64,000 bases of DNA from Deuterostichococcus epilithicus (lineage: Eukaryota; Chlorophyta; Trebouxiophyceae; Prasiolales; Stichococcaceae). Numbering within the stretch: position 1 is the first letter of the stretch; the number at the start of each line of letters is the position of its first letter. Positions 2,049-62,200 of this stretch are shown here, one piece after another. A model generated the notes under the pieces. It ran no database searches. It saw only the letters and a list, made by a program, of their open reading frames with translations, and was not told the origin of the DNA. The stretch is from the NCBI GenBank assembly GCA_033439295.1, contig JAVTLE010000008.1, positions 2,542,001-2,606,000 of the forward strand, read 5' to 3'. The translations under genes were made by a program, and so were the position numbers.

Positions 2049-5000
2049 GTGTCTCTCACATGCAGTCAGGACAGCCCCGTGAGCGTACTGCCCCCAACGG
2101 GCAGTGCGCCGTCCGAAACCGAGCCACTCGTTGAGACCGAGCCACTCGTCGAAGGACGTGTGCTTGGAAGTGTCACGCCGCTCCAGCGCTTCAAGGCGTC
2201 GCCATGGTTCCCGCACATCATTCTCATGTGCTGCCAGGTGCTTGATCACCTGTAAAAGCTTCATTTTGAGTTCCCGCACCTCATTGTCATGTGCTGTCAG
2301 GTGCTTGATCATCTGCAAAAGCATTGATTTTGACTCGAAAGGTCAAGTCGACAAGTCTGCCGTGGTGATGCAGAATTGCACCTGCCTTATGCTAGTTTCA
2401 AGCACAGTGCGTGCTGATCCTGTCATCCGGCAGCTGGCTTCCTGTCAACGCTCTTGTGAATCCTCGCAGCTGGCGTTTGCGTCGATGCACGTGACCAGCC
2501 ATGCGGCGCTGGACTACATTCCGCCAACAGTGTACTCGGCATTCCGCATCGGGATGGCGGTGCCGCTGCTGTTTGCATCGGCACGCCTTCAGGTGAGCGA
2601 CATTTCATCCTGCACGCATCCGAGGTCAGCTGGGCATCGCTGCAACGTGTATCACCATCGCTGCAACGTGTATCACCACCGACTGAGTATATTGAGCAAG
2701 TGTACCTGTGTGTCTGTGCACAGGAGGCGAGTTTCCGGCCGCAGCTGAACGACCTGCCGTGGTTTGTGGTCCTGGGGATCATCGGAGTGGCCACGCCGCA
2801 GTGCCTGGTCTACATCGGCAACAAAGTGCGGGAGACATGAGCCAGACGAGCTGCCTGTATATATAGGCTTGCAGGTTCCACCCGGCTTGAGACCCTGCAC
2901 GAGCTGCTGCAAACATTGCACAGCACCCCTGCACAACGCACCTGAGTCCTGCATGGGGTCAGCAAGGCGTACACAGCAGCGATTGTGTCTTGACTCATGC
3001 AGCTGGCCGGAGCCGCATACGTGGGCATCTTCACTCCGATGGTGCCGGTGTACGTCGCAGTGCTGTCGGCGCTGCTGCGCATAGAGCGCTTCACGCTGCT
3101 CAAGGTGAGACGGTGCAAACCCTGAAGTACACACAGCTGCAGGCACTCGATGGTAATCAGCGGGCTCCCGCCGTGCCGGTCGCAACCTTCGTCTCTCTCA
3201 CGTCGCCAGAGAGCGCTGTCATCCAAAGGCCGTTACGTGCCTCAGCATTGGCTGCCGTTGCAGCAAGACTGCACCAGCATCTGACCTTTCAGACTTGCGC
3301 AGGGCGTCGGCATCTGCTTCTCCATATCGGGCGCCTTCATCCTGGTCCACATCGAGAAGCTTGACATTCACAAGTGCGCCCCCCTTGAGCGCGCAAGTTT
3401 CGAGCTTTTACCAATGTGTCTGCAAGAGTGCGCTCAGCGCCTGTGCACGCTGCCCATACAGTCTCGTGCAAGTGCGCCAGAGGCGACTCGACGCATTCGA
3501 AGCTGGCACGGCATCTAGACATCATTGCAGCCTGCTGCTTGCGCTCCGCCGAGCCTTGAATAAATCCTATTACCTGTAGGGCCAACACGAAGGGGCTGCT
3601 GGCACTCATGACCCTGAACGCCAGCTACGCAGTATACCTGGTAAGCCTGCAGCGCTACCTGTCGCGCCGGCCTTATCCCTTCTCCTTCTTCGCATGCGCC
3701 TCCGCCTGCGGCTGCGCCGCCGTGACCGCCGTCGCCCTGCCAGAGTTTGCCAAGGTGCGCTTTGGATAGTTCCCTGCCTTGCCAGGCTTTGTGCCGAATA
3801 CACCGGTCTGAGCAAACCTTGAAATTCATGTATGTTGCAAAGCTTGGCGTGCGTAGCTTCCAAATTGCAGCAGGACGGGAGTTTCCACCGGTCACACCGT
3901 GCTCGCCGAGTCCCGTCTTGGATTGCACCTGCGGCTGCTATTTGAGGTAGTATCCTGTGTTGCAGATCGACTGGAGCGCAGTGCCCTGGTCTGCCTGGGC
4001 CGCCCTCGCGTGGGCTGGCTGCGGCACCTCTTTCCTGGCGCACTCGGCCGTCAGCTGGGCCGTCGGGCGCTGCGCCGCCGTCATCCCCTCCATCTACAGC
4101 TGCATGCAGGCAGGTTCAATGCTGTGTGTTGCCATGGGCGGCTCCGAAATGTTTCCACTCATACTTGCGCCGCTGAGCTCGTAGTGCAGCCCGCGTCAGC
4201 TCAGGCGCCTGCACAGCTGGGAAGGCTCTGACGGGGCCACCTTCGAGGTCAATGCTGGCCCTGTGAAGGCCACGCATATTCCCTTGATGCTGGCACGTCT
4301 CTGCTCCGTTAATGCTCACAACTGTCCCCGCCTGCGCAGCTAGTGCACTGTGGTAATCATTACTCTTGCGACGTGACGCCTGGGCCAGAATCTTAAACCC
4401 TGCAGGCCTCACTGGTCTGGAACCTCCCTTGCTGTGGCAGCTGGTGCTGACCGTCATGCTGGCAGCATTAGACCCTGACACTGTTCGTGAAACCACTGAC
4501 CCTTGTTGTGCAGCCGGTGCTGACGGTCACGCTGGCAGCATGGTACTTGGGGCAGACGCTGGCGGGACGCGACCTGGCCGCCATGGGCCTGGTTCTCGTC
4601 GGTGTTGGGTTTGTCATCTACTCCAAGGTCTCGGAGGATGCCCGCCGGTGCGATTGCAGTGCGCTGCCAAATTCAAGCTTGCTGTTCCTTAGTGCGTTGG
4701 CGTGCGCTGCCCTTTGCAGCAGATCTTGCCTCGGGCCAGCCCGTGCCTGCTTGTGCGAGCTCGGTTCCGAAAGCTGCACCGGGACTTTGCCAAGCTGGGA
4801 GTCTGACGCTAGTCCCCACAGCGAGCAGCTTGCGGTGCCAGGACCCATACCTGCACAGGCTCTGCCATGCTGCAGGGCAAGGCCTGTTGTGCGCCGCTCT
4901 GTGGTCGCTGCCGCACCTGTCCGTGGCGTCTAGGATAGGTGTGAATTGGCAATCGTCTCCATGCACAGGCGGGCGGAGCGTACGGCAGAGTACCAGCTCG

Positions 5001-6510: not shown

Positions 6511-6825
6511 CTACTGCTAGATACTCTAGGCGCCGCCTGCCGATCGGACGCCGAAGTCGATGAAGGGCCCCATAGTCCTTTATTTGCATGGCATTACTAC
6601 ATCCCGGGCTCAGCGATGCAAGACCAACCTTTTGGGGGTCAGGTGTGAGCGGTGAGGCAGCGAAGATGAGCAAACGAGCTGCAAACCACCGGGGCACAAC
6701 AAAGGGCAGCAGCGATCTTGGGCGGTCAGGCGGAATAGTCAATCCGTGAAACAGTTGATACGTGGCGCTTTCAAGATTGTAACCGCCAAATTTGACCACC
6801 GAGCACCCCATCACACACGGCAGCT

Positions 6826-6896
6826 TGCTTTGTAGTGTAGTGGTTAGCACTGGGGACTCTGAATCCCCCAACCTGGGTTCGACTCCCAGCAAGGCA
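6826..6896 (+). tRNA. trnQ-CUG: tRNA-Gln (anticodon CTG), left copy
   Basis: The 71-base sequence folds as a cloverleaf. The acceptor TGCTTTG pairs with CAAGGCA with one wobble and a T1-A72 end. The D arm is GTGTAGTGGTTAGCAC. The anticodon stem GGGGA/TCCCC encloses loop CTCTGAA, giving anticodon CTG for codon CAG. The T arm is CTGGG-TTCGACT-CCCAG. The D arm and loop match plant tRNA-Gln closely. A T5 run at 6905-6909 is a good polymerase III terminator. It is intron-less, and CCA is not encoded. Confidence 0.93.
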
Positions 6897-6904
6897 AAGC
6901 TTTG

Positions 6905-6957: not shown

Positions 6958-6996
6958 CATAACACAAGCTCGCGTTCTGAACCGGTTGATGGCTTG

Positions 6997-12604: not shown

Positions 12605-12684
12605 ACACCTTCAACCCCGTGGGCAGCTTGTAGCCCTCTATCTAGGGCCCTATGCTTGTGGCTCTTCCCAGGGTCCATGCGCAG

Positions 12685-13767
12685 CTACACAGGGTTGATG
12701 CAGCCGACGATGACATGAGGCGACGTGCCTTGCACCGGCGCGGGCACAAGCGTGGGTTGCAAGGCAATCACATCGGAGAAGGCCTGATCCCATAAGGTTT
12801 TGTAGAGCGCCCTGACCCCCGCCGCCTGCAAAGTCTGTCTGAAAGACAGCGCCGGTTGGTCGGACAGGCTTTGAACTGGCTAGCATGTTCATGGATTTTT
12901 GGCAGAGCCTGATGTTCTACGCTACTGCTTCTGTCGCATGGCAAATCGGCCCGGCAGGCGCCATGATGGCAGTGTGTCCCGCGAGCAGGGTCGCCGCCAG
13001 ACTGTCAATGCTGGAGAGCGTGCATGAGAGGAATGCATGACATGCTCTGCAGCGGATGTGGTCCATCACAGGTGCCATGGCTCAAGAGTGTCAGAGTGCC
13101 AGAAAGAGAGCGCTCGACGGCAGTGCATGCCATGTGCATGAGCAGACACAAGACAGCCAGGCAGTGGGAGTTATGCTACAAGCTATATCTGTGGCAGGCG
13201 GCCCCCATTAAAGGTATCTCAGGTTGTCTCTTGTCAGCAATGGCTGTTCGCTGCCCATCCTGCATTTGGCAGGGCATGCGCATCCGTGACTGGACCAGAT
13301 CCGGGCATCTGCGCAACGCAATTGGAGACGTACGTTCAGCGTGCAGCTGCCGTTGAACTCCTTGGGGGTGCCGTTTGGCACCGGCATCCTGGCGTCAGTG
13401 ATGCCGACGATGTCGCCAGTGGCATGCACCGTCAGGTTCTGGAACTTGGCCATTGATTCAGAAGCGGCGCTCTCCCCGCCGGGGAACAGCTCTTGCTGGT
13501 GCACGGCAGCACACAGATTTGTGATTGCGCGTGGATCGTGGGTAATTTGTACTACAGCTTGGTCAGGCACATCAAATCACTGGCTCGAAGCGGCGCGCTC
13601 ACCGTGCAAACGCAATTGGAGACGTCCACTCACCGGCACCACGGGGGAGATGGTGCGGCCGCCCTTGTGCAGGCCACTTGGTGCCAGCAGTACAACCAAG
13701 CAGTCCCAGAAGAAGCCGAGCTTCTCCAGCTTGTCAACTGGGTTCTCTAGCACCGCCCATGGCATGT
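12685..13767 (-). CDS. unidentified protein, 3' copy of a tandemly repeated exon pair
   Basis: Three phase-compatible exons are visible. Exon a (13634-13767) reads LGFFWDCLVVLLAPSG and HKGGRTISPVVP. Exon b (13334-13495) reads QELFPGGESAASESMAKFQN and TGDIVGITDARMPVPNGT. Exon c (12685-12825) reads ALYKTLWDQAFSDVIALQPT and ends GCINPV before TAG. Another exon could lie in the 508 bases between b and c. Two N-x-S/T sites (N-L-T, N-G-S) and cysteines are compatible with a secreted or lumenal protein, but I see no signal peptide. I do not recognise the family. Confidence 0.5.
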
Positions 13768-14099: not shown

Positions 14100-14990
14100 A
14101 TATCTGCATTATGCGATCGCAAACCTCCACGAGCGCGCACGAGCTGTTGAACTGCCGGGGGGTCCCCCTAGGCGGGGCTTTCCCAGCGCTTGTGTTGCCC
14201 AAGATGCCGCAGCCGGTGTGCACCGTCAGGCATCGGAGTTTGGTCAGCAATGGTGCTGTCCCAACCGGCGAGCACGTCTTGTTGGTGCACTGCAGCACGT
14301 AGAACTATAATTGCGCCTAGATTGTGAGCCATCCGTTTCAACGGTCAGGCACGTCACAACATTGGCTTGGAGCGGAGCACTCACTGTGCAAGAGCAGTAA
14401 TGACGACCACTCACCGGGAAGACGAACGAAACGGTCCTTCCCCCAATGCCCAGGCGGGATGGCACGATGATCACTGACTCGCAGACGCAGGAGAAGCCGA
14501 GGGATAACTGCTCCCCAATGGTTCGCTCCAGCTCATCACCGATGCCTGCAAGGGACAGACCCCGGCCAGTAGTTGCAGCATGGCCCCAGTGCTCGGCAGC
14601 CCGTCAATTGTGCATAAAGTGGCCGTGGAAGGCACGGTGCACGCATCACGACCCGCTCGGGTGCATGACCGCCTTGGATACAATTGGCAGGATTGAGGCA
14701 TGGGTGCCCAGGTCTGCAGCTTTGTCCCTTGGGCGGCCCTTCAGGTTGAACATCAAGGTCCATAGCCGCTCATGTGTTTGGCTATACAGGGGTGAATATG
14801 CCGGCAATGAGGAAACGTGCCTCGCGCCGCCACATGCACAAACATGGTTAGCAAGGCAGCTACATGGTAGCCCAATGCGGCATGCTATCACCAAGATGCG
14901 CCATCTATGTGAGTTAGGCCTACTTCAGTGGACCAGTTTGCATGTTGCCATAGGACATGAATCTAGAGTTGAAAGATGTACCCTTTGGAT
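14100..14990 (-). CDS. 5' copy of the same exon pair (repeated domain or decaying gene copy)
   Basis: Exon a' (14415-14545) reads LGFSCVCESVIIVPSRLG and GIGGRTVSFVFP, aligned to exon a downstream with the same phases. Exon b' (about 14105-14285) aligns to exon b but lacks its CAG acceptor and is about 8 bases shorter before the LTVH motif. A more upstream acceptor gives an open exon, CTNKTCSPVG through QFNSSCALVE. Sequence resembling exon c occurs near 14790-14860 but carries in-frame stops. It may be an internal domain duplication of one gene or an old tandem gene copy losing function. Confidence 0.4.
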
Positions 14991-18217: not shown

Positions 18218-18427
18218 CAAGCCATCAACCGGTTCAGAACGCGAGCTTGTGTTGTGTTTGGCGCAAATGTGCATGTCCGCGCCAAAAACGCAAGCGGTTG
18301 CGCCAAAAACAAAGCATTGCCTTGCTGGGAGTCGAACCCAGGTTGGGGGATTCAGAGTCCCCAGTGCTAACCACTACACTACAAAGCAAGCTGCCGTGTG
18401 ATGAGGTGCTCGGCAGCCAAATTTGGC
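18218..18427 (-). repeat. tRNA-Gln cassette, right copy (inverted)
   Basis: This is the reverse complement of 6785-6996 with identical tRNA and almost identical body, including the T5 runs and all three TTTGGCGC motifs. Flanking similarity outside the cassette is much weaker. Confidence 0.85.
18318..18388 (-). tRNA. trnQ-CUG: tRNA-Gln (anticodon CTG), right copy
   Basis: This copy is identical over all 71 bases to the one at 6826-6896, in the opposite orientation, with the same cloverleaf, anticodon CTG and downstream T5 terminator. It sits about 0.9 kb past the end of the plus-strand LRR gene. The other copy likewise sits about 1 kb past the end of the minus-strand F-box/LRR gene. Confidence 0.92.
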
Positions 18428-18860: not shown

Positions 18861-19094
18861 ATACCAGCCCTTTGGTGGGCACACAGTAATGCAAATTGCA
18901 CTCTTGGCCCACAGCGGGCCTTTGCTGCAGCATCTCCACCACTTGCCGCCGTGCCTCGAAGCTTCACAACAGCCCGTATACCAGCCCTTGCGCATGTGGT
19001 AATTCATGTTGCAACCCTCGGCCCACGGCGAGCTTTCTGTCTGGCAGCTTCTCCAGCGCATGCCGCCGCGCCCTCGCCACTCCACTCAAGTGAA
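18861..19094 (+). repeat. tandem duplication, 117-bp unit, two copies
   Basis: Both units (from 18861 and 18978) start ATACCAGCCCTT and share a GGCCCAC core, a CAGC-TCTCCA block and a GCCGCCG-GCC-TCG end. The copies are diverged. They do not encode a conserved frame that I can trust. Confidence 0.6.
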
Positions 19095-19467: not shown

Positions 19468-22400
19468 CTAGCTCCCGCTATGCACAACGTCCATGCGCGC
19501 ATACAGCCACTGGAAGATGGTGCTGATGGCGTCATCCTGTGGTGAATCAATACGCACCAGTGACATCTACGCAACTGAACAAGCCCCCATGCCAAGACCG
19601 GGCTGAGAAAAGCAACGCATCCGCAAGCGTGTGTGCTTGTTGGTGTGGACTGTCCACAGGCAGTGCACATGGCTGAACGTTGGGCCGCCACCAGACATGG
19701 GAAAACACGCAGCGCAATGGGGCCATCGTCGCAACTCCGACCACGATGCACGGCAGCATGCACTCGCTGGTAGACAACGCGTACCTGGGTGCCGTTGCCA
19801 GCGAACGGCGCCGGCAGCGACTTGTAGTGCGTGCCCGGGTCGGCGTGCTCCATGCGCTGCGCGTTGTCGGCGCGGCGCTCCGCCAGCTCCTCCCGCAGCA
19901 GCGGCAGCGCCCACACGAAGCTGCCAGGTTGGCAGCGCGAATCTGTCAAGCTTCTTGTGTTTCGTCTCGCTGCTGGAAAGGTTGGAGCATGCGCATCAAA
20001 TTGTCATTGCGCGGAAGGGTGCCCTGTCAGCTCCTCCCGGACCACCGGCAGCGCCCACACCAAGCTGACCGGCAGGTTTTGCTGGCTCTATTTATCAATA
20101 GGACACTGTCTGTTCTAAAGGTGTAAATTCTGCCACAGCGACCATGACCTTTTGCGCAGCATGTGCGCGAAGGCCAGGTCTTGCCAGGGCGCAAGCTCAT
20201 TCCGCCCTGGCACTGGCCGACATATCGACGGATCTAGCAAAGGGGGACTTCGATCGAGCCGGAGGATGAAAGATACACGACAAGCACGTACCGATGCCAA
20301 ATGCGCCCGATCGCGGCCTGCATCTCCTTCCGCCGCTGGTCCGGCACCGCCAGCAGGATCTCCGGCACCTTTGGACACCGGAGAGACACGATCAACAAAC
20401 GGAAACGATCAGGTGCAACGTCCAACATTGGCAGGCGGCTGCTGCTCAGCTGTCCAGTTGCGCAGCGTAGAGCTTTGCAATGCCAGGCACAGCCCTTCTG
20501 CACCTCGGCCACTGACATGCTAAAAACTGTACAGCAGGTCAGACATGCTTCCCAACCGAAAAAAGGTCTGCAAGGCGTCACACCCCAGGCCCAGGGCGTA
20601 TGAGAGGCACGCGCAGTGGCGACCGGCGGTCAGCTGCCTCACATGGGCACCCGGAGGGCTTTGCTGGGCTGCCGGGCCAGGATCGTCAAACAGCCGATGG
20701 GCAGGAGGCGCCAAGTTTTGATTCCAGATGCCCGCATTCCCATTTACACCTGCTCGATGTCGGCCTCCGGAATGCGCAGAGAGAAGGCGGCATAGTCCAC
20801 GACGCCGGAGAACTTCTCCTCAACGCCGTCCATGATGAGCACAGGGATGCAGCCGTGCAGGACAGCGTCCTCGGCGCGGCGCGCCCAGCCGTCGCCTGGA
20901 GGCATAGGGTTTGTTCACTGTTCATGTTTTGTTCATGAGATACATGGTTCGACTGCCACGCAATGCGCGCCACTCATTGACGAGCACGGGATGCGGACAT
21001 GCCAGACGGTGTCGTCCGCGCGCGCTGCGCCCAGCCATCGCCTCACAACTGCAAAAAGAGACCTGCATCAAAGGGAATCATCTGAGATGGGTCAGCGAGG
21101 CGGGGCGGTGCGGGATGCGACCTTTACAAGCCGTGCCCAGCAAAAACCTGTGAGAAGCAGCATAGTTCTTTCTCTATCTGGGGGTTGCCAGGCGTTCTGA
21201 CGAGCAGCAGAGAGGCGGGGCTTTTGCGACAGCTGCCCAGGGTCGGCGTCCTCGGCCCGCAGCGCCGAATTCTCTGCTGGCAGGCATGTGTGAGGAGAAA
21301 GATATCTACATGGCTCTGGAAGCATGGAGCATCGGAGGCGAGGTGACAATATGTCCAACCTCGGTCAATGGCGCCGTGTTGGCGGCGGGTGCAGCCCTGC
21401 ACTGCACCTTGCCAGCAACCCACGTGGCAGCACTGGCCACCACCAGGTCTATCTAATCTGGTTTTGGCGACACCTAATTTTGGCGAGACCTAGTTTTGGG
21501 AAGACCCAACCCTCCCTCAGACATGCCTCCTGCCAGCATCGGAGCGACAAGTGCCAACAGCCAACCGAGGCTCCAACGCTCCCAAAGAGTAGGTGCTACG
21601 CATGCTGGCAGCCAGGAGCACAAGTGATCTATTCATCACAGCCCTTATCGTAGCAAACTGCCGCCTTAAGTCCTGCGCGCACCCGGCAGCACAAAGCAGA
21701 AGACGCTGGTCGCAAGGAGGTCGGTGTACGGGATGTCGCTGTCCTCGTGGTGGTGGTCCACGCGGATGTCGTGCAGGCGGCGCCAGTCACCAGCGTCGGC
21801 GGCCGCCTTGAGGCGCTGCCGGATGCCGCGACTGAAGCGTGGCGCCCTGTACGGAGTTGTTGGAGCAGATAGGACCTTGTTTGTTGTGGATGGCTGCTCG
21901 TCCACAGCAGTCGCACCCAAGAAGAGGGCGGTTGCAACAGCAACAGGGTTTTGGTGGCAGCCGCGGCACCTGAGAAAACCGCGAGGTGCTTGCCGCCCAT
22001 CAAACAGGGCAAGGCCGTTGCTAACAAGACATCAGTCACTCGTGTCACCGAGCGAGGATATACGACAGGTGATTGGTGCTGTTCAGTGCCTGCAACTGCT
22101 GTTCGTGCCGGAGTTCGCACATGCAAATTACAACAGCTAAAACAACACAAACGGCAAAGATACGTGGCGACCGCGCCTGTGGTCGCCCGTCTCTCCGCGG
22201 AAGAATGCGAGGATATGGCGGTGCATTGGCGGCCGGCCCTGCAGCGGGCTTGCCGCAAACTCCGCGGCAATGTGAATCGTCGGCAGCAGCAGGTCCTGCG
22301 CAGGGCGCCAAGTGGACAGCTCTGCAATGAGGTGACCTCAGCACAGCGTGCTGCAGCAGCGGCTAACGGTGCAGAGGGCCCCATCGGACTGCCACCCCTT

Positions 22401-34760: not shown

Positions 34761-35509
34761 CTACGTGAAGCGGGTGAACACCGTCGCTCGAGACTACTGC
34801 CTGGGTTTTTGAGGGATGCTCCAGGACCGCTGCAAATTTCCGCCGCCTGGTCCGCGGGTTATAAGCACGAAGCGTCGAGCGAGGCACTCGGGCAGCACGA
34901 CTCTGCTCAGCTATGCATGCCCCACCAGCGCCGCCGCTGGCGCCGACGCTGGCGTGTTCACATGGATTCAGTGGCAATACAAAGTTTTTTCATCTGTTTG
35001 CCAGCTTTACATCGAAATCGAAGCTGAGTTCCGAATGTCAGCGCTTAACGTCCTGCCCTTTGCACACCTGGCGGCTGGCCACCTGCCATCGCTTAACGTC
35101 CTGCCCTTTGCCGCCTGGCGGCTCGCTCAGCAATCCTTGAGGCTCAAGCCGCGCCGTTATCACTCGGCAAAATTTCCACACGATCTGAGCTGCATGTAAC
35201 GTGCGTGCGGGTTGCATTCAGCCCGTTCTGAGCATGTAGTGCGCTCCGGAGGTCAGCCACTGCAGCTCCTGCAGCTCTCCCCAACCAGAAGCGAGCCCTG
35301 CGGAATCAGTTTGGTGCACATGGATTGAAACCAATGCGAAGCCGACTTGCAAGCATGTGTATCCTGCAGGATGTCAGGTCTGGACGAGTCTGTGCATGAG
35401 CGTCTTCAATCATTGTGGAGCAGCAACGATGACCCTGCAGCATGAACACAAGGGTTTCAAGGGGCACATATGTCTTTGCAGCAGTCCGCAGCATACCTGC
35501 AGCAGGTGG
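34761..35509. other. no gene; contains a 51-bp tandem duplication
   Basis: At 35039-35126 the sequence CGCTTAACGTCCTGCCCTTT followed by a GGCGGCT block is repeated with about 51-base spacing. Otherwise the stretch is unassigned and lies downstream of the second F-box/LRR gene. Confidence 0.5.
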
Positions 35510-42419: not shown

Positions 42420-45400
42420 ATGGGCAGATTTCTGAGCGGGCACGGCCTGCGGCCCTGGACTGCGGCTTCCCCCGCAGCCCTCGCTGTCGCCGCGCTGTTC
42501 GTCGAGAGGATCGCTCGAGAGGGGCTGGTGCCGCACAAGGATATCTTACCACTAAACGGCCGGGATGCTGCGGGTCTCACGCTCGCCGCGCTGTCGCTGC
42601 TCATTGCTGCTGGAGGCGGCATCGGTAGGTCACGTGCCCGAACATTATCACCGTTTCCCGACTGTTCAGCGCATTCCAGAGGCCTTCTTTGGCGTAGCTC
42701 AGACTTGGTGGTATGGCGCAATCTCTGGTGCCGTCCCATCCAATGCTAAGTGCTCCTGCACGCACAAGCACGCTTTGTTTGCGTGCGTGCATGCCACAGG
42801 TAGTCATCCTGCAGCAAATGCTTGTGCGCCATGCATGGTGGATGGCGTTCACTGATCAGTGACGTCCTACTCCAGCAAGCCATGTCATATGCCCCTTCAA
42901 CAGACGTCCGGATCGTGAGTTTGTGCCAATTCTGACCCGCTGCAGGTGGCGGCGCCCTCCTCGTCCCAGTGCTGATACTCATTCTCGGTGCGTGGCTCGC
43001 ATGCGCAGCAAGGGAAATTTTGCCGCTGATTGACCTCACCAGCCCATACGACGGCAGGCTTGCGTCGGCACGCGTCATACACCAAGCCACACTAGCATGG
43101 ACATGCCCTGCGCGGTGGAATCATCGACAGCAGAACCTTTCCCACGTGGCATTTCTTGAGACATGCCTGCTACTCATGGCTCTTAAACTCGCCGCTCACA
43201 ATGGTACTCGCACCTGCAGGCTTCAGGCCGAACAATGCGGTGGCGCTGTCCAATGTCACGATCGTGGGTGGTGCGCTGGCAAACTTCACATTTAACCTCA
43301 ACCGGCGGCATCCCTCCGGCACGAGGAGCCTCATCGACTGGTAGGTGCAAATCATGAGGTGGTGAACGAGCTCAGCGATTTTTACTGCACGAGCAGATGT
43401 ATGCATCGTATATACTCTATCTGCGCACACAAATGATGAGTCTTGCCAAAGCGGGAACGGAATGGCGATTAACAACACCTTCAAACATGGAACACACATG
43501 ACATGGAACGATTGCGGGTGCAGGGACTTGATCCTTGTCATGGAGCCGAGCACAATACTGGGTGCCCTCGTCGGCTCCTATTTGAACAAGGTGTGTCCTG
43601 CGACATTTGCACTGTAGCAGTGACACCGTCAGCCAGAGCCTGCACACTCTGATGCGAGCTATAGGTTCAGGCTAGGGTCACTCGGTCTATCTGAGCTGTA
43701 CTCAAATGCGGTTCTGCGCTGCTGCTGCCGCTACCACCACGATGCACCAATGGCGACGCCCTCATCGCAACCTGGCTCTTGGTGTCTAGGTGCTGAGGGG
43801 CACACCCAACCCACTGCTCCACGCAGGTGCTGCCGCCGTGGCTGACGACGGTGCTGCTGTCGGCACTACTGGCGCTGCTTTCTTCCAAGCTCATCCACCG
43901 CGGCGTGCTCACCTACCGTTCGGAATCGAAGGCAATGGCGCTGGCGGCGCATGAAGCCGCAGAACTGAATGCTGCGCTGGAGGCGCCGCTATTGCTCGAA
44001 GGTGAGCCGACAGACTGGACCTCACACCCCAACGGAGCAGCTTTCCTAGAGCGATTTCACTCTCCACGTACATGCTTGGTGATGATTGGCATCTGCACGC
44101 AGCAGTGACCTTACTGTTGAACCTTGCGGACGACGTCGAGTGCAGCATCACGGTCCGTCAAACGGAGCTGACAGTAGTGCGCGATCCTCCTTGGCATTCG
44201 AAACGGACTGCGACATATCCATGACCGGCATCTTTGCAACCTGTGCTGCCCTGCCCACCCTGCACAGCAGCCCAGCTACCCTAGCCAGCGCCGGCTTCAG
44301 TCAATCAGCCCAGAACCCGCGTGCTCCGTATTCCTGCAAACCCCTCTGCAGTGCCCTGTCATGCAGATGCGGGTGACGGCCCGCTGCGCACCCCCTCGAC
44401 TGGGTCACTGCGCAACAGCAGCGTCGACACCACCCCGGCCCGTCGGCGCGCCTTCCGGCGCCTGGTCAGCAGTGCCTCTGCGTCCGAGGACACAAGTTTC
44501 TTCGAGAGCCCCGACCGTGGGGAGGGCACCAATGACAGAGGTGGGCTGCCCTGGAATCGAAGACCGTTGCAAGCAGACAACGAGATGCAACGCTCGGGTC
44601 TTGTGTACACAGCCTCCAGCCATTCGTGCTCTTGTCGACAGGTGCTGGCGCGTTCCCCAAGGCGGCGTCCGCGATGTCGCGGCCGGGGCAAGCAGCCCGC
44701 CGTCAGTCAGCCGCAGCCAGTCCCTCCGCTCTTGAGGTCTGTGTGGATGGCCAGTCTTTCTTTCAGGACTTAGCGTTTGTCTGGCGGCGCAGTCCAGCAG
44801 ACAAGTGTTGCGTGGCCGTGTCACATCCATGCCTCACGTTGTGCAGCCATGTGCGTGTGCAGCCATGTGTCGTGGGTGCACGCACATGCGCCAGTGACAA
44901 GAGGGAAGTAGGGACACCCATCCACCTCGACCTGAAGCGCATCAGGCATGCCTGCTCTGCCGAACGTCACAGCGCTTTCCCCGAGCTGCTCGCAGCAGAG
45001 AGAGGCGCAGCGCTCGCAGCTCGAGAGGGTGCTGGAACGGGAGGGGCGGCAGATTCCATGGGAACACATCACGCTGCTCGTCTTCCTGACGATAGGTGTG
45101 CCATTGCGGCGGGCGGCTGGATCTCAATAACGCTCAATCAGGACTTGAGTGCTTGGCGACCTGTGGTCGCCATGCAGCCGTCACGAGTTGTCCTGGCAGA
45201 GTGCAGCAGATGGCTAGGTGTGGCAGCCGGCAGCAGCGCTGCTCGTTTGCGTGCAGCGACGTCTCCCCACCACCAGAAAATTCGGGTTGCAGCACGAGCT
45301 CAAGCGCATTGGCCTGGCTACTCGCGGTCAGCACCCCATTTGGCTGCCATGCAGCCGTGATCGCAGCGGATACGCTGAAGGGCAGCGTGCGCTGCGGCAG

Positions 45401-47104
45401 CGCGCTGTACTGGGTCATCAGCGCCAGCCTCGTTCCGCTCATCCTCGTGGTGTCCATCGCCGTTGCGATGTGGCTGGTGTGGAAGAATAACATCAAGAGC
45501 ACGGCCGGCTACGAGCTGCCTGACGGCGAGGTGATGCGTGCGCACCTGACCTCGGCTCAGCAGTGTTTGTGTTGTTCAAGCAATGCCTCTCCACCTTTGC
45601 AGGCACACTGTGCTGATGTGAAGGATGCCCTGGCCGGAGCGCCTGCTAGGCTGATGAACACAGCACGATTTGCAAGAGCTGATCGATGGGGTCAAGCTCG
45701 CTCAGGGCCTCACGAAATGCCCAGTTTATTTGCCTGCAGGTGGCGTGGACACCGCGAAACACTGTGCTCTACCCTGCCATTTGCAGCCTGGCGGGCCTGG
45801 TCGCCGGCATGTTCGGCGTTGGCGGCGGCATTGTCAAGGCAAGTTGCGACACTCCCCAAAGACATCGTGACTATGAATTGAGATATCAATATATATCATT
45901 ATGTGTCTGGCGAACACGTTGCGTCAGCGCACAGTCTCTCGCTGGCCAGCTTGTCGCTGGCCAGCTTACGAAGGCTTTGGCTGGCAGCGATGTGTTCAAC
46001 TTTCTTACCTGTGTCCATCTGCAATGTGGCGAAGAATAAGCACTGTCTCTGCTCGACAGGGGCCGCTCATGCTGGAAATGGGGGTGCTGCCTGACGTGGC
46101 AGCGGCAACCAGCGCCACCATGATCATGTGAGGACACCTGCTATTAGGGCTCTATCAGCCGGTGTTTCTGTCGAGAGATTATCAATGAAATCTGCTTGAG
46201 AACATGCCTCGCTTGCAGAATTTCAAGACAGCTCCAAACGAACCAGAACCCCTTCTGGTGCACCTTCCTGCAGGTTCACAGCCGCATCGGCCTCCGCCGT
46301 CTACATCAGTTTCGGCACAGTCAAGTAGGATTTGCGCCCCTCAGACACCACCTTGACCGTTTTGCTGCAGTGCGATCACCCTCAGTGATGTGCAACGCTG
46401 CTCATCGGCTGCATTAAAGTTGCAATCCCACGTAGTGCTGACACATCAAGTCACTCAAGTGCTCCCGTGCGTCTGGTGGCGCCAGGTATGACTATGGGCT
46501 CGTGCTGTTCGTGCTGGGCTTTGCCGCAACGCTGGGCGGGCAGCTGGGCGCCCACTGGCTGATGATGCGGCTGCAGCGGCGCTCGGTGGTCGTCTTTTTC
46601 ATGGCAGCGCTGCTGTGAGTAACGTCGTATCATGCTGTCTACGGCTGGCATCGTGTCAATGGTTTGCATTGAAGAGCATCTTGGAAAACTGGGCGACACC
46701 TGCTGTCCTCTCAAGTGCCTTTCCTACAGCACACAGCGAGGCGATACACTCGTGCGAAATGGAAGCGCCGCGGCGACCAGGGTTCATGCAGTGTGGTTAA
46801 TGCGTGCCGCACAGGTCGCTGGCCACGGTCGTAATGACCTCGGAGGCGGCAGTGCGCACAGTGCAGGTCCGCAAGCGAGCTTGCGCCTATGCTGCGTCTC
46901 TTCTCAACGAGACACAACAATTTGGTGTGCAGGAGTGGCACCAGCCGAGCGCGTAACAGATAGTTGCCCGGTAATGTTCGTGATCAGTGAATCGACCTCA
47001 CATGCATGTGCACCTGCCACATATTAACGCGTAGGTATGCGCTGCAGGCGGCCAAGCACCACGATCTGTGGGACTGGCGCAACATCTGCTCAGCGTCGAC
47101 CTGA
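42420..47104 (+). CDS. TauE/SafE-family (TSUP) anion transporter, copy 1
   Basis: This is a multi-pass membrane permease of about 540 residues. The family moves sulfite, sulfonates or related anions. Exons: 42420-42624, 42946-42987, 43220-43340, 43524-43590, 43827-44001, 44367-44540, 44642-44736, 44996-45095, 45355-45530, 45740-45838, 46060-46127, 46274-46324, 46486-46615, about 46815-46866 and about 47035-47104. Family hallmarks are the glycine motif AAGGGIG/GGALLVPVLILILG near the N-terminus and its repeat GLVAGMFGVGGGIVK/GPLMLEMGVLPDVAAATSA in the second half. VALSNVTIVGGALANF and MEPSTILGALVGSYLNK are further helices. A hydrophilic loop (44367-45050) divides the halves. The intron after 45838 has a GC donor. 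The last join is not phase-perfect. TGTAA at 47438 may end the transcript. Confidence 0.87.
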
Positions 47105-47873
47105 CCGGCGCACAGCATAGCAACATGTACTCCGCTCGCACGAGGTGTGGAGCTTGGAACTTGTATCACAGAGGCAGCGGCCTGCTATCGGTGAACGGCC
47201 TCAGCAGTGGACGTTGGCCGTCGCCGGCTTCAGAGACTGAAAGCGGCCGTCCGGCATGGGAGGGACCTCAGCAGCGGCGGCGGCGGCGACTGCGGGGGCG
47301 GCTGCGGCGGCTGAGTTGTAGTCTTTGCCCACGCCGCCGCCAGCACGTCTTCCTCCATAACTTTATCAAGCCTTCATCGCTAGCGGCAGGCGAAGCGTGG
47401 GCACGTGCTGGCTTTCGGCCACCATGAGCCCTGCTGCTGTAAACCAGCCCTGTAGCGCATGTCACTCCAATGAGCACAAGGGGTTTTCTGTCTTCCATGG
47501 CAGCCAAACCCAGCTTGATTGAACTCCGAGTGAAATCGCGAGCGATTTGCTGCTGCCAGTGGGCGCTAACACAGCATCCGCGTGCCAATCGACTTGAGCA
47601 TCACTGTGTAGGTTTACAATACGAGTAACTTCGACAACTGCAATCAGCATCCGACCTGATTGAGCAGCAAAAATCTTTCGTCCTGATAGCTGTATCTGCT
47701 GGCGTCGGGGTTCACCCCGGGGCACCTAGTAAACCCCGCTCCGACCTGGCCTTGCCTCGTCGCTCAGCAAACGCAAGCAGTGCCGCTAACCACAGGCTGA
47801 GACCGCCCTTTGGACAACCTTGAGGACCCAGCCTACCTCACTTGCCGGAAGCGTACACAAAACATCGCCCACG
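47105..47873. other. spacer between the tandem TSUP genes
   Basis: It contains the TGTAA candidate of copy 1 (47438-47442), a CGG-rich stretch near 47270-47320 and presumably the promoter of copy 2. I see no coding exon. Confidence 0.45.
47438..47442 (+). terminator. TGTAA polyadenylation signal candidate of TSUP copy 1
   Basis: It lies 334 bases past the stop, a distance similar to that seen for the EF-hand (351) and HSP90 (about 350) genes. Confidence 0.35.
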
Positions 47874-50800
47874 ATGCGGCACCTCATGGAGGGCAACCCC
47901 GCGGCAGGCATGCTTGTTGGGGCGCTGCTGCTGGGGGTGTCGCAGCGGTACCTGGGCGTCAGCACGCACAAGAACCTGCTACCACCCAACGGCAGGGACC
48001 TAGGGGGCCTGCTGCTCGCCGCCGGGAGCCTGTTTGTGGCGGCCGGCGGCGGCATCGGGTGCGCAAATGCTGCGGGCAAGCTCAGGATTCTGTGCTTGAT
48101 GTTGCAGCGGAAATCGCACATGTACCAATTCTCGTGCGTGCTGCGTTTGACAGCTCAAAGGGACCTGCTCTTCAGAAGCCGCATACCATTGACTGTAAGC
48201 GGCTCAAATGTTGCCCTGAAAAATCTCACGCACTGACACCCGCAGGGGAGGAGCTCTGCTGGTGCCGATACTGCTCATCGTCATGAGTGCGTTCAGCGCC
48301 CCCCCCTCCCCGTTCTGTAGTAAAGCAAAGCAGGATGCTGCAGGGTGTTCAGGGCAGCCGCACGGGCCGCTGTAGCATACCCTGCTGACTCAACCTGCTG
48401 TCCTATATGCAGACTTCCAGCCAAACAATGCTGTTGCCCTCAGCAACGTGACAATTGTGGGAGGTGCGGTTTGCTCCCTGCAGCACTTGATGGATCCTTC
48501 GAATTCTCAGAAGAACAGGGTCTCTGTACACTGTCATCATGATTCCAAGGAATCTCTGATTCAGCTGCGCAGGGGCAATAGCAAACTTCCTGTACAATGT
48601 GCGAAGGCGTCACCCCTCTGGCGACAAGGCCCTTGTGGACTGGTGAGCATGACACATGTCCTGGTAATCATCAGTCAAGCGCTGCGCTGTCGCCACAACT
48701 GCTCATGCATGGTGGTGCTCGAGCCGGGGCATGTGTTATCTCCAATTCTCTGGCCAAAGTTGCCTTGCGATTTTCCAGCGCCTGACAAAATGCTCACGGT
48801 GAGCATCGCAGGGACCTAATACTGGTGCGTCAAAGGACAGTCAACAAATGCCCCTGTTTCCGTTTGCGTGCAGCGTCGAGGCCTGTGAATGACTGCATGG
48901 GGTTGCCTCGAGAGCGGTTTCCGTGCCTGTGGTGCTGCCACGTCAGAACCGCAACCAGCTTGTGAAGTCCGGGACATCAGTGGCATGGCTGCTAACCAGG
49001 TGATGGAGCCTACCACCATCCTCGGAGCACTGGCGGGCAGCTACGCAAATAAGGCGAGCTGCCCTGTCGTGTCCGCCTGGCACAGGCGCCACCGGCTGCC
49101 GGGTTTGTTCCGTCGTGCACGGTTCAGGCCCGGCTGCTGTGCGTCCCAGCCGCCAAATGGGTCGGATGGGTCAGCGGCGCCATGGCACCGCCCTCCTGGC
49201 ATCTTTCGTGATTCTGCCCAGGCTGATGTGCCAAGCGACTTATTGTTCGATTGATGTTCGAGCCTCAAGGCGACTGGCTTTTGCGGCTGACTTCTGCACT
49301 TCCAATCGCGCTGCGCAGCTGCTGCCGGCATGGACGACGACGGTGCTGCTGGCGCTGCTGCTGCTGTTCCTGTCGTCAAAGCTAATCGTCCGGGGCGTGC
49401 ACACCTACCGTGCGGAGACCGCGGAACTCAAGGAGGAGGCGTCGCACGGGGACGCGGGGGATGCAGGAAGCGCCAATGACGGCCCCGACGAACCGCCGCC
49501 GAGTGGGTCCATTTGCCTCGACACCGCTGCTGACCGGCGGGACCGGGGCAAAGCTGCGCGAGGGGGGCGGGATTGCGCTGGCGTCCTCCAGCGCACCTGT
49601 GCTGTTGCCTGGGTGCCGCGGCGCGGGTCGGGGCGGCCCTGTGCCGGCATGGCGCATGAGACCGGGCACAGCCCATGTGTTTGAGGCGTCCGAGTGCTCC
49701 TGCATGCGCGGCGCTGGACGCGAAAGCGCACCCCTTGCAGCTGGACCACGCGGCAGCATTCGGAACAACAAAACGAGTCTACAGGCCAGACGTCCAACCA
49801 CACCTTGAGCCGCCGTTGCCTGTCGCGCAGGCGCGCTGACGGAAGCAAAGCGGACCTCGCTAAAGCTGGGCCGCATCGCGTCCTTTGCCAGCGCCTCGGA
49901 GCACACTACGCTCTTCGAGACGCTGCACGACCGTGTGGCACAGCTGGCAGGTGCGGCAAACACTGTTCTGGCTCATTGCTGTCAGGTATGTCGGAGGATG
50001 TGAGATGTGTAGCAGCGGCAGATGTGCGCCGTCCAGAGGTCGCCTCAGCGGCCGCGCTGGTGGACTCGGATGCACAGGCGCCGCAGGATCCGATGTTGAC
50101 GTGCTTACTTGCGCGGACTTGCTCAAGGGTGACAGGCCAAAGCACGGTTGCCGTTTCAGTTGTGCCGCCTTATTCTGCTGCAGCCCCGAGAAAAGTGGGA
50201 GAAGTGAAACCGTAATTGGTTGCGGGCACACTGTGACACAGTGCCGCCCTCCTGACGCACGTCAAACTGGTGCAACCGCAGACACCGTGGTGGAGACAGC
50301 AGCCGAGCTGGCACAGCCGCTGCTGGGGCGCACCACTGGCAATGGGCATGGCAGCAGTGACGGTGTTGGCGCAGCGGCGGACGCTGCACAGCCGCACCTC
50401 GATGCCGAGCAGCAGGTACGAAGTCTGCACTCTCGTTATTTCATCAAGAGACACACTGTGGAAAAGAGGAGGGAATGGAACGCTGCACTACTGCGCCAGA
50501 AGCGGCGACTCCACTGCCAGGCAGCAGCTCAGTATATGAACATCAGAAAGTGTTGGGGAGCTGAAAGGCACTGGTTGCGGCGCTGGGACCTGGTGCATGC
50601 AAACCAGCCAGCCTGTCAGCCTGTCAGCATTCCTCTTGTGTGTGTGGGAGTCCAGAGTCTATGAATGAGCGGTTCTCGCGGAACCTCCAGGGCAGTTCTG
50701 GCATAATCCATTGACACACGGGCCTGCAAACGATGCATGATGCACTCGTGCCGTCACATGGCAGGAAAAGCTGGATGCGATTCTCAGGGCGGAGGGCCGT

Positions 50801-53062
50801 CAGCTGCCGTGGCAACATCTCACCACGCTCGGCCTGCTGACCCTGGGTTAGTTTGCGCCGCCCAGGGTGCTCATGGATCTAACGCCTGCGGCACATGTGC
50901 CTGCCGGTGCTGTGCGTTTAGGTTTTTCTGCCTGCTTGATCTGCTGCAGGCATTGCCAGTGCCCCGCTTCTGCTGCGCTCGCTCGGCGACTTGCTGCACA
51001 TTGTCGCCGACTGCCACCGAGACCTTTGTGTCATGAAGGACGCTTCATGCACATGCGCTGGGGGTCGTATGCTGCTGCCAGACTGACCGTGCCTCCTGTG
51101 CCCTGCGCCGCAGCCGTCATTGCAAGCGACACTGGAAAGCAGTACGTGGCCTGCGGCGGACCGGCGTACTGGGGCATCGCGCTAGCCCTGGTGCCGCTCA
51201 CGGCTGCGGTGTCAGCTACAGCGGCTGTGTGGCTCACGCGCAAGTACACGCTCAAGATGGCAGCCGGGCGGCAGCTGCCCAAGGGCGAGGTGCGGTTGAT
51301 CGAGGCGTTGGTTTTGGTCAAAGGTACATGAGGAGTGCGAATGGACTTGTTGTGCAGTGATTGAGGAATGCCGCCAAGAGCTGCCATGCAGCCTTGGCAG
51401 GGTGCACAAGGGTGTAGGTGCCAGATGGCCGGCCCGCTGCTTTCGCTGCTGCTTTTGGGCGTAGATGCCATCATTCGTCGCCGCCCTGCCTTGGCTGGCG
51501 CGGCCTGCGGTGCTATTGGCGCGCGAGGCTGCTGAGGCGGGCGTCCTTGCTGACTCGTCACCCAGGTGGCGTGGACGAAGCGCAACACGATCGTGTACCC
51601 GGCGGTGTGCAGCATCGCTGGCCTCGTGGCCGGCATGTTTGGCGTTGGTGGCGGCATTGTCAAGGTGCGGCCTCCGCCGCCCAGCCCTGCATGCCGTGAT
51701 TGCGAGCACACGAGTCGAGATGCAAACTTCTGGCCTCGCTGAAATGCAGAGCATCCTGCTGCGTGCCCAGTGCCTGTTCGTCCTGGAGCGGCTGCAGGCC
51801 AGGCAGCAGGAATGCAGGCTGATGCGCCCTCGCCACGATGCGACGCCAGGACAGCATCAGCGCATATGCCCGGGGCTGAATGTCGGGCCTGTGGCTGCTC
51901 TCATGGCCTCGGTCGCAGGCTCATGGCACCCTGCTCAGCACTGTTGCCGGTGCCCTGCCGCAGGGGCCGCTCATGCTGGAAATGGGTGTGCTCCCCGATG
52001 TCGCCGCAGCCACCAGCGCAACTATGATCATGTGAGGCTCAGACCTCTCGTGAAGCATATGCAATGCTCTCCCGTCTGCATTCTGAGACAGTGCCAATTG
52101 CACATGCGCCACTGCCTGAAAGCTGAGGCTGGCGCGAGCGATGCTCTACATCGGTCGCGAGTGCGCGACAAAGCTCCGGTGCGATGTGACATGCACAGGT
52201 TCACGGCCGCATCTGCCTCGGCCGTCTACGTTGGCTTTGGCACCGTCAAGTGGGTGGCTCCTGCACAGTCTGCGCTCACATGCACTTGCCATGTTCAGTC
52301 AAGGCCGGTCGCCCTGGTTGCGAACAGCCAGGCTGGCCCTTGCCATGCACATGGCATATGGATGGTGTTGGCATATGGATTCTGAGGAGGTAGTGACACG
52401 GAGGCATCATGGCCCTGGCGCCTTGCGATGTCAGCAACCTCAGAATTCTGAGCTGACATGGCGCCCTGGTTGTGCCCAGGGCAGACTACGGCACCGCGCT
52501 GTTCATCATCGGGCTGACGGTGACCTTTGCCGGCCAGTGGGCCGCCCACTTCCTCATGCAGCGGCTGCACCGCCGCTCGGTCGTCATCTTCAGCATGGCT
52601 GCGCTTATGTGCGCATTGCCCTGTCGCCTCTGTATCTGCCCCTTGCCCCTTCCCTTGCCAGCAGCAGGGCAATTCGCCTGTTTCATCGTAGGAATGCGCA
52701 CAGCCATCTGCTTTGGCCTCACACTGAGTATTTGTGGCGGTTGCGCCTGCATTACTGCAGTGGCAAACGCCACCTTGTGTGTGCCGCAAAACATGTGTTC
52801 AAACCTGCACTGGAGGCAGCGGTGCGGTCTGGCAGCGCGTGCAATGGCTGCAACGATGCACCGTCCCGCTTCCAGGTGGCCGGCATGCATTCCGATTATG
52901 CGGTCCACTTTCGATTTCACGTGAGGTGACCTCCTACTCAGAAACGTGTGCCTGTGTCTTTACAGGAGCCTGGCGGCGGTCGTAATGACTGTGGAAAGTA
53001 TCTTCCGTACCATAACGGCGGTGCGGCACCATCAGCTGGCCGGTTGGGGGAGCATCTGTTGA
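47874..53062 (+). CDS. TauE/SafE-family (TSUP) anion transporter, copy 2
   Basis: This is the tandem paralogue of copy 1, with the same 15-exon plan and about 520 residues. Exons: 47874-48058, 48246-48286, 48413-48463, 48573-48642, about 48981-49053, 49319-49502, 49831-49950, 50282-50415, 50765-50846, 51114-51289, 51566-51664, 51964-52031, 52199-52249, 52480-52608 and 52966-53062. The start is MRHLMEGNPAAGMLVGALLL. Conserved blocks are FVAAGGGIGGGALLVPILLI, NNAVALSNVTIVGGAIANF, MEPTTILGALAGSYANK, GLVAGMFGVGGGIVK and GPLMLEMGVLPDVAAATSA. The last two are identical between copies, while the central hydrophilic loop has diverged strongly. The intron after 49053 uses GC where copy 1 uses GT. Exon 5's left edge is uncertain. 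Confidence 0.87.
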
Positions 53063-58445: not shown

Positions 58446-58911
58446 GAGCAGACTGCTTCCATGGAGGCTGCCAGCTGGGTGACGGCAGAGCGGCCAGAAG
58501 ACAGGGACCAGCAGCAGGCTGCAAACGTCATTACCGTCTTTGACATGTTGCTGTTGCCGAAGTAAACTGGGCCAGCAGGCAGGCTGTGTCATGCGCGCGA
58601 TATGTTGCTCGTCTAGGTATGCTATGGTGGAAATGTATTAAACATCCGCTGCCGAGGCGGTGCTTCGTACGCACCAGGTGCCGTCGACGCGCTCACTGCC
58701 ATGATGCCCAGCACATGTATGCAGGCGTGCTGTGTCATTCAGTTGCGGAGTTGCTCAGGGGTATATAGGTCTCTTGGTGGCTTAAAGCAAACCTGGTGTA
58801 GTTCTCAAACCTGGTTGAAACCTGCCAGTTGCAGATGTCGGGGTGAGACTGCCTCTACTACCCCCACAACACTGAAAATGCCTTGTTACTGGGCTTGCCT
58901 GATTACTGCAA

Positions 58912-58916
58912 TTACA
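58912..58916 (-). terminator. TGTAA polyadenylation signal candidate of the HSP90C gene
   Basis: TGTAA on the minus strand lies about 350 bases past the HSP90C stop at 59268. The interval between them shows no other gene that I can support. Confidence 0.35.
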
Positions 58917-59267
58917 CATCGATGAGCATACTGAGTCCGAAAATGATCCCTATCTACGCAACGGGCACGCAGCGGCGTGGCAAAGGCAACGATCCGGTAC
59001 GAAAAGGACACGGGGACAAACAGTGAGACATGGGGTCATCACAAGCACATTAACCGCCTGGCGGACGATTTGACCACGGCAGCTCCGGGGAGACGTCAAA
59101 GAGACGCTACGGCAGCATCGAGGTGCGTCGTCTGTCAACTGTTCGATGCCGCCTGCGGCCGACCGTCAGATGCGTTGAGTCTGAAAGACCGCCGGAGTTT
59201 GCCCTCTGGAAAGTGCTCCCCAGCTCCAGCTGCGTTTCCCGTCCGTCACCGGCTGCCGCAGCCGCGC

Positions 59268-62200
59268 TCATGCGCGCCAGGGGTCACCGCCCTCGTTGTC
59301 GTTGTCTGCCATCACCTCCGGCGTCACCTGTGCGAGGCAGCACCCTCACGTCAGGCGCGAGTACCCACCATCGGAGCAAGTCGCCCCACTGACCCCACAA
59401 GGTCGGAACAGGACCAGAGAGGCCCCTGCGCAGCAGCTGGCAGGTCTGCCGCCGTTGGTGGGCGAAATTTTGCAGAATAGCTGAGACGAAAGCACCGGGG
59501 CCGAGAAGCCATGGCGTATCGACAGTCGCGCACCTCTTCCCGGGAGGGAGTGGGTGCTGCCTTCGAAGCGCTGCCGCTGCCGCTGCTGCCGCCGGCGGCC
59601 GGGGCGCCGCCGCTGCTGCTGATCAAGCTGTAGATCCTGCAGGCGGCACAGGAACAGTCTGTCAGCACGACGCACGACTCGCCGTACGAGTAGAGCTCGA
59701 CACATACGACTGCGTAAGGTTGAATACTTATGCTATTGGAGGTAGTGACACGACGCCAGCCCCTCGACACAAGTGCTGCTGTGGGGAAGATGGATGCTGT
59801 CTTGACAGCCGGCTGGGCAGCGGATCCTGCAGAGCAGCGATGCCTGTATGGCGCAACTCTGTGCAGAGCCCCGGGCAGCTTGGGCCAGCGCTCACCGAGC
59901 ATGCTGCGATGCGCCGCCGCCTGGCGCAGCAGCAGCTGCCACCAGCGGCCGCACCCTGGCGGCGGTCACGGCAGATGACAAGCCCAACACAGCTCACGTG
60001 ACGGCAGACCAGCAACCGCCACACCCCAGCCCCCATACCCCACAACCTCCACAGCAGCAAGCTGTTGCTGATCACGCCCCCAAGCCAAGCAGCGCAAGAC
60101 TGCTTGGCCCACAACACTTTCCCGCCGCACCTGCCGGCAAATTCCTTGGGCGACTCCACATTGAAGCCGCTGGTGAGCAGCGCCGTCTCGTACAGCAGCT
60201 CGGCGGTCGCGCCGGCCTGCAGAATGCAAGGTCCTTTCCTGAAAGCCGCTCGAAAGAGGGCAAGGTCGTCCTGGGTGACACTCACAGCTTGCAGGTGTGC
60301 TCAAAGAACATTCAGCAACTGCAGCTTGCCTGGCCGCCGGCAGGGTCTGCCTCGAACTGCGCCCGGAGGGAGGCGATGACAGGGGAGTCGGGGTTGACCT
60401 CCATGATGCGGCGGCCGCGCATGTACTCCATCGCCCGCGAGTCCGCCATGGTCTGCACAGGAAGCAGGAAGCCGGAATCAGGCTTTGCATGTGATTTTCA
60501 TTTGGTGCTCAGTGTCTCCGTGTGATGCGGCACACACGCATGTCTCAACCGCCCATGGGACCGCCATTGTCTGCGCAGGGGGAAGGAATTGGTTTTGAGG
60601 AAACGAAGCTGTTTTCGTGACATACGATGCAGCACTCGCGCACGCAATGCATGAGACGTCGAAACAAGGCTGCAGGGTCATGAAAGAGACTGGATGGCAG
60701 TTTCTGATTGCGCGCGGGCAAGAATTGGTTGTGAGTGTTTGAGCGTGCTGTCAGAGCAGGGCAGTCACGGGCCAGCGCAAGGGGCAGGCTGCCAATGCTG
60801 CAGCGCTGCTGAGGCGCAGCACGCAGTCACGCACAACCCGCTATACAAAAAAGATGAGCACAATGCTGTCACCCGGATAACAAATCACAGCGTCAGACAC
60901 GGAGGCTGGTCGCCAACACAGGCGCTTAAATAGCCCACTGGTTGCTGTGGGCTCTGCTGTCGTTGTTTGGAATCGACTGCCTCTCAGACGTCTCCACCAA
61001 AGCAGCATGCTCATCGGCTGCGTGCTAGGTGAATGCCCGCCCGCGTGAGCAGGCGCCGGCACCGCCCCCCACGGGGCTGACACACAAGCCCCCCCCCCTC
61101 CCCCGGATGCACCCGGCTCGTCAAGGCGCGCTCCCCTGGGTGCCAGGCCCCTGCCGCTCGCCAAGGAGCCCCAGCAGAAGACACAGCCTCAACACAGGGC
61201 GGCAGGGAAGCTCGCCTGGCTCTTCATGATGCGCTCCATGTTGGCGGACCAGCCGAACTTGGAGGTGACGAGCGCGACGGGGGAGTCCGCCAGCCGGCTG
61301 CTGACCACCACCTTTTCGACCCTGTCGCCAAGCGTGCGCTTGATGAAGTCCGTGACCGGCTTCAGCTCCTTCTCGGCCTCCTCCGTCTGCAGCGGTGAAA
61401 GGAGAACTTTCAGGGCCACGCCAGGGAGCACAGCCCGACACGGCTTTCGATCTCCGCGTGCTCGTCTGCCTGATCTTTTACAAAAGAGTGCGATGGAGGA
61501 ACGTCTCTGTGAGCTGCCAGACCCAAGAACCCTGAGATGCACAGCGCTTTCGAAACCTGCAACCCCCGCTCCGGCGCTCCTGTCCGACTGCCGCTGCCGG
61601 CCGCGAGCCCCTGGGCCTGCTGCTGCCAGACGTGCTGCCAGAGCAGCCCACACAGGCGCGACTCCTGCCGGCCTTGTGTGTTTGACACGTTTTGCTCACC
61701 TTGGCCGTGTCCTCCTCCTCATTGCCCATCTGCAGGTCTTCTTGTGACATCCACCAGGCGTCTTTGCAAGGCAGCTTTCAGATGCTCCTGTCTGTCTGTA
61801 TCGGAGTCGTGTGCTCATCCTCACCTTGGCCTCCCTCCTCGTTGCCCAGCTGGCCTCCTTCAGTACGTCCACCAGGTTTCTTCACCAAAACCCAATATGC
61901 GTTGAGGCTTTTGCCTGATTTGTTGTGATTCCACACACCTTGGCCTTGTCCTCCTCCTCGTCTCCCAGCTGCAGGTCCTCCTTCGTCACATCCACCAGGT
62001 CGTGGCCGTCGAACTTCGCCAGGTTGGTGGCCACCACCTCGTCGATGGGCTCCGTCAGGTACAGCACCTGCGAATTGGAGCCTGGAGGCATTACGATCGC
62101 TGTAGTTGCCTCACCACGAGGGCGCAAAACGTCAAGTGCAGAGTGCAGCTGTCGCTTCGACATGAGGTGCTGCATGCTTCTGCCTTGTATAGCTGCGCCG

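Follow-up and report, generated by a model that had tools for sequence, protein, structure and literature searches.

Copies of exon edges in the window

The window is a 64,000-nucleotide (nt) stretch of the genome of the green alga Deuterostichococcus epilithicus (contig JAVTLE010000008.1, positions 2,542,001 to 2,606,000). It contains three unrelated genes, with Pfam assignments EamA, Exostosin_GT47 and HSP90, whose introns hold degenerate copies of the edges of their own exons. An initial annotation had described five such cases at spacings of 63-147 nt. All five were recovered by sequence comparison, and the spacing holds for every case except the farther of the two copies of one HSP90 exon end, which lies 241 nt away.

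In the EamA-type transporter gene (forward strand), the end of an exon (to 2237) and its donor belong to the first unit (2207-2269) of a 63-nt tandem pair, and the second unit (2270-2333) is a copy of the exon end, the donor and approximately 32 nt of intron. At this offset of 63 nt the units are 89% identical over 64 columns, with both the exonic and the intronic halves alike. If the second donor were used, an in-frame TAA would be read, as judged by eye. The second pair in this gene is on the acceptor side: the exon that starts at 4514 has its acceptor region copied at 4407-4468, and the working acceptor region and exon start (4474-4541) resemble this copy at 80% with an offset of 67 nt. A 38-nt model exon at 4406-4443 is probably this copy itself, and the exon call is then probably wrong. 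Inspection by eye also suggests a possible GC-AG intron at approximately 4110-4513 on the forward strand, in which CAG/GCAGGT would be joined to the exon at 4514, bypassing the 38-nt model exon.

The GT47 gene, on the reverse strand, has two acceptor-side pairs, each with an offset of 144 nt. The working acceptor and exon start at 19874-19930 (model exon 19785-19920) have an intronic copy at 20018-20078 (80%), and those at 20824-20897 (model exon 20750-20895) have one at 20968-21043 (77%). In the HSP90 gene, also on the reverse strand, the last 60 nt of the exon at 61939-62067 (61939-61998), followed by the donor, are represented twice in the intron: by a gapped copy at 61825-61875 (77%, 123 nt away) and by the farther copy at 61700-61757 (85%). 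A sixth case, absent from the initial annotation, was found on the acceptor side of the same gene, where the working acceptor and exon start at 60404-60470 (model exon 60330-60452) are copied at 60523-60588 (76%, offset 119 nt).

Frequency, anatomy and decay of the copies

The comparison of introns with the 100 nt of their flanking exons, which the initial annotation had proposed for the whole genome, was carried out on 214 kilobases (kb) of 46.8 megabases in 21 contigs: the window and two further stretches, C1:500001-600000 and C9:500001-550000. The results below therefore refer to this part of one genome and to in-house gene models. These came from a small hidden Markov gene finder, trained on the same 214 kb, which predicted 31 genes with 399 introns (median length 242 nt) and gave a splice consensus of CAG/GTGCG for donors and TGCAG/G for acceptors. 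The models have flaws: two TauE-type genes are fused, the first transporter exon is too short, and some copies are called as exons. Their phases are right where this is needed, since no stop occurs in the 772 exon codons lying under the copies that were followed up (see below).

Exon-edge copies in introns are real and general. Every edge whose exon measured 25 nt or longer was tested by aligning a maximum of 100 nt of that exon to its own intron, and the score was ranked against those of 300 intronic pieces matched in length and drawn at random from other genes (cut-off p<=1/301). Matches were obtained for 47 of 735 exon edges, as against 2.4 expected, and at least one edge copy is held by 45 of the 399 introns. 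The window accounts for 8 of 180 edges (two of these eight rows flank the doubtful model exon at 4406-4443), the C1 stretch for 32 of 386 and the C9 stretch for 7 of 169; the suggestion of a general process is thus upheld by both stretches outside the window. Two window cases were not scored fairly: the EamA donor case, as its model exon is 12 nt long and thus below the minimum, and the HSP90 donor case, as both of its copies were modelled as exons. Because the controls are near chance (2 of 724 for an edge against the intron two places away, 3 of 724 for an edge against its own intron reversed), the similarity is both local and direct. With regard to introner-type elements, the copies match their own exon and the non-adjacent intron gave only the 2 matches in 724, this being a check in which no search was aimed at introner families.

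Follow-up was based on 47 edges with p<=0.0067 in 46 introns of at least 100 nt, a set that differs from the 47 edges of the scan. Of its copies, 16 are on the donor side and 31 on the acceptor side (Fisher p=0.034), and they are 64-93% alike to their exon edges. In 26 of the 47, no more than 1 nt separates the match from the junction; the alignment query stops at the junction, so this count shows that the copy reaches the junction and not that copying ended there. Among these 26, GT is retained in 6 of 8 donor copies and AG in 6 of 18 acceptor copies, the latter being below the 65% that would be left under neutral decay (P 0.006). Copies tend to lie close to the edge from which they derive, with donor-edge copies nearer to the intron start in 14 of 16 cases and acceptor-edge copies nearer to the intron end in 26 of 31. 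The near end of the copy is at least 36 nt from the junction in 16 of 16 donor and 28 of 31 acceptor cases, whereas random breakpoints would place 20-30% closer than this (P 0.02 for donors, 0.07 for acceptors). Unit length, that is the near gap plus the exon part, has quartiles of 112, 129 and 167 nt.

The proposal that such copies contribute to intron growth agrees with the intron lengths, the median being 380 nt in the 46 introns with a copy and 245 nt in the 310 others of at least 100 nt. When the units are subtracted the median falls to 256 nt, so that the excess is about one unit. Subtraction of the exon copy only leaves 308 nt, and because this is close to the length-biased median of 297 nt, intron length alone does not have the power to separate models.

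Alignment of the 47 copies with their exons gave 541 mismatches and 189 gaps. The mismatch rates at the three codon positions are equal (0.194, 0.193 and 0.198), and the gap length is a multiple of three in 17 of the 189. A frameshift gap or a stop is present in 42 of the 47 copies, and this count lends no support to the cassette-exon role envisaged in the initial annotation. The copies are non-coding now, and the source exons have changed little. That the copies once served as coding exons was considered and is not supported by codon positions and frames, although stops are somewhat scarce.

Paralogs were compared to gauge whether a little-changed exon next to a decayed copy would be unusual. 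The LHC loci L029 (C19) and L030 (C18) have nearly identical exons, with 1, 0 and 11 differences among 206 first, second and third codon positions, and strongly diverged introns that align poorly (anchored mean z of 3.7 over six ends). For the alpha-tubulin pair L020 and L021 the corresponding counts are 5, 1 and 29 of 112, with a mean z of 1.1 for the introns. The pair L029/L032 was left out because one exon is out of register. In the LHC and alpha-tubulin genes at least, the rate of intron decay is several times that of synonymous sites. Genes of both kinds are usually highly expressed, and exon conversion is possible in the paralogs compared. Many chlorophyll a/b-binding exons are also present elsewhere in the genome, which is indicative of a green alga.

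Origin of the copies

We consider it probable, at roughly two chances in three, that the copies derive from short tandem duplications that spanned a splice junction, were absorbed by the intron and then decayed. In such an event, a short tandem duplication would have its ends on either side of a splice junction; splicing would stay with the outer junction, and the extra copy would turn into intron, leaving the protein unchanged. Uptake of the extra copy by the intron is what would make a duplication of coding sequence tolerable. Once there, the copy would decay as intron, and the source exon would be held still by selection. The duplications would be mostly old, stemming from a past wave or from a rate that has since fallen. 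Those that were tolerated may have left at least about 36 nt of its own intron beside the working site, and upstream acceptor copies may have been silenced by selection. Direct orientation, adjacency, reach to the junction, decay that is blind to codons and introns longer by about one unit are the observations on which this reading rests.

Duplication of a piece spanning the junction predicts that the intron next to the working site resembles the intron next to the junction of the copy. A unit with both halves is clear at 2207-2333 of the window and in a triple array at 19.4 kb of the C1 stretch, where the two exon-derived copies agree at 37 of 46 positions and two of the spacers at 47 of 61 columns. 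In a further C1 array, at 79.4 kb, two spacers are alike (z 4.2) but the third exon copy is barely readable. Over the whole set, unanchored intronic halves are similar in 3 of 44 pairs at p<0.05. When anchored, the 28 pairs within 2 nt of the junction have a mean z of 0.83, as against the 4.29 ± 0.27 expected if the divergence of the exon half is taken at face value and doubled. In a fuller simulation with selection of detectable cases, the best agreement is near a single old age of d=0.3 substitutions per site (joint P 0.006), and models lacking an intronic half yield z values of 0.09-0.17 (P<=0.0008 at every age tried). The observed mean thus lies above the exon-only models and below, or at the edge of, those with two halves; copying of the intronic half is partly shown. 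Pure exon-only copying was rejected, both because models without an intronic half miss the observed z and because intron decay in the paralogs is much faster than that of synonymous sites.

Tandem pairs of any kind were surveyed by comparing 60-nt pieces with the next 800 nt, which gave 111 merged pairs. At offsets of 50-300 nt the edge class has 35 pairs and the intron-only class 3, one of them within an edge array; a further 7 pairs are intergenic, 15 are exon-exon and 11 are of other kinds. Six of the 7 intergenic pairs are at 41-46 kb of the C9 stretch, within a repeat array at 38.5-49.8 kb (L015-L016) that has matches of more than 500 nt at 93-96%. This array looks like a cluster of non-LTR (long terminal repeat) retrotransposons, and one model in it has a reverse transcriptase motif of the YADD type. 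The sole intergenic pair outside the array is at 18861-19085 of the window (offset 117 nt, 72%). For comparison, 40000 random duplications were simulated on the same sequence, of which 38318 were kept; intronic parts were allowed to decay in each of the two copies, and the exon changed slowly or not at all. The simulations took unit lengths to be log-uniform and indel sizes to be simple. At a constant rate, each intron-only pair should be matched by 1.5-1.7 edge pairs, and each intergenic pair by approximately 3.

Several of the results weigh against our reading of the copies as decayed junction-crossing duplications. The observed ratios are 35:3 for edge to intron-only pairs (P ~4e-5 under a constant rate) and 35:1 for edge to intergenic pairs. 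Uniform ages predict that 19% of edge pairs should have an identity of at least 0.9, and 1 of 35 does (P 0.005). With all events old, the predicted ratio rises, reaching 8 at d=0.25 and 33 at d=0.3. Taken by itself, however, the identity histogram favours d=0.15, where the ratio is 1.5, and the fit of a single old age, with its joint P of 0.006 at d=0.3, is marginal. Individual cases also speak against it: the C1 intron 35503-35968 has kept 50 of 54 exon bases and has no similar intron half; in the HSP90 donor array the two intronic copies are 73% alike and the three spacers are near random (z 0.6-2.3); and the third spacer of the C1 19.4-kb array is unlike both others. Stops in the copies are scarce, with 3 observed and 9.2 ± 3.2 expected from random change of the copy alone (P 0.02). 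This reading does not explain why young copies are scarce, nor why intronic halves are weak where the copy is well kept.

A wave, or a process linked to splice sites, may have pasted copies of exon edges into a large share of the introns, either in one past episode or as copies that were born diverged and were often bounded by the exon edge, and much of the intron sequence would then consist of decayed duplications; we regard this as possible but rather doubtful. In a strict form of exon-bounded copying, some 30-90 nt would be taken from the exon edge, together with no more than the splice consensus, and inserted, possibly inaccurately, 40-100 nt away in the neighbouring intron; the copies would be diverged from the start and lack an intronic half. 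This strict form is unlikely. It would account for the 3 of 44 similar intronic halves, for an anchored z of 0.83 where 4.29 is expected, for the missing young copies, for there being just 3 intron-only pairs, and for C1 35503-35968 and HSP90, which have no alike intronic halves. As the sole process, however, it is rejected at each age tried (P<=0.0008), and it is at odds with the existence of two-half units and with the frequent presence of the splice dinucleotide in the copy (GT in 6 of 8, AG in 6 of 18). Random tandem duplication at a constant rate, with edge pairs remaining visible longest owing to short introns and a frozen exon copy, is decidedly improbable. Both visibility effects are real in simulation, where they favour edge pairs by 1.5-1.7 to 1, but this is contradicted as a full account by the 35:3 observed, by 1 intergenic pair outside the C9 array where approximately 11-12 are expected, and by the missing young pairs. 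The initial annotation had taken a frequency no higher than that of random tandem duplication as grounds for abandoning its view; constant-rate neutral duplication does not fit the ratio, and since duplications that are all old would fit it, no exon-specific process is proved.

Retention of the copies for a function, as decoy splice sites or alternative exons, would be consistent with the slight stop deficit, with an excess of synonymous changes (95, as against 74.6 ± 8.4 expected from random change of the copy alone) and with the GT kept in 6 of 8 donor copies, and there may be a trace of past coding constraint on the copies. Judged from sequence, it is nonetheless very improbable, given that 42 of 47 copies have a frameshift gap or stop, that codon positions are equally hit and that AG is lost in 12 of 18 acceptor copies. 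Collapse or expansion of reads in the assembly, a source that the initial annotation had also raised, is scarcely credible, and nothing was found in its favour: the copies are 64-93% alike to their exons, mismatches outnumber gaps (541 and 189), and the copies track exon edges in one direction. Young repeats are moreover present in the assembly, as in the C9 array.

Other features of the window include two tandem TauE/SafE-type genes at 42420-53062 (forward strand), in which seven exon-sized stretches are 74-87% alike and the introns have no detectable similarity. A local duplication of approximately 400 nt (13349-13751 and 14143-14532, 66% alike) has one side in a predicted gene. Two tRNA-Gln genes with the anticodon CTG are found at 6825-6898 (forward strand) and 18316-18389 (reverse strand).

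Relation to known systems and significance

Gao and Lynch are said to have found in 2009 that internal gene duplications are common and sometimes carry introns. A tandem duplication across an intron-exon boundary has been described for a potato RdRp gene, where one recent event gave rise to a new intron (PMC4974935). As in that gene, a duplication crossing the boundary would here copy the intron end and the exon start together; unlike the potato event, the alga has many decayed copies within existing introns, next to donors as well as acceptors, and nothing indicates that a new intron has formed (PMC4974935). Cases in Drosophila are also local tandem duplications with splice-site motifs, but in the model given there the new intron lies between two exonic copies, whereas here the copies are near their own edge with intron on both sides (PMC2891723). 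Tandem or mutually exclusive exons (PMC9013439) likewise place similar exon sequences side by side; the present copies are of exon edges and mostly out of frame, 42 of the 47 being interrupted by a frameshift gap or a stop. Among the matches listed in the open-access literature, no title describes a genome-wide stock of exon-edge copies in introns. The kind of mutation is already known from one potato gene, and its abundance here is new.

Intron growth and the origin of spare splice sites have often been argued from single cases. Here, approximately 6% of the sampled exon edges and 11% of the introns carry a readable relic of simple geometry, and these relics form a countable record of duplications across splice junctions. 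The scarcity of young copies poses a question of rate, selection or mechanism. If the reading of an old wave is true, a sizeable part of the intron sequence of this alga would derive from such duplications.

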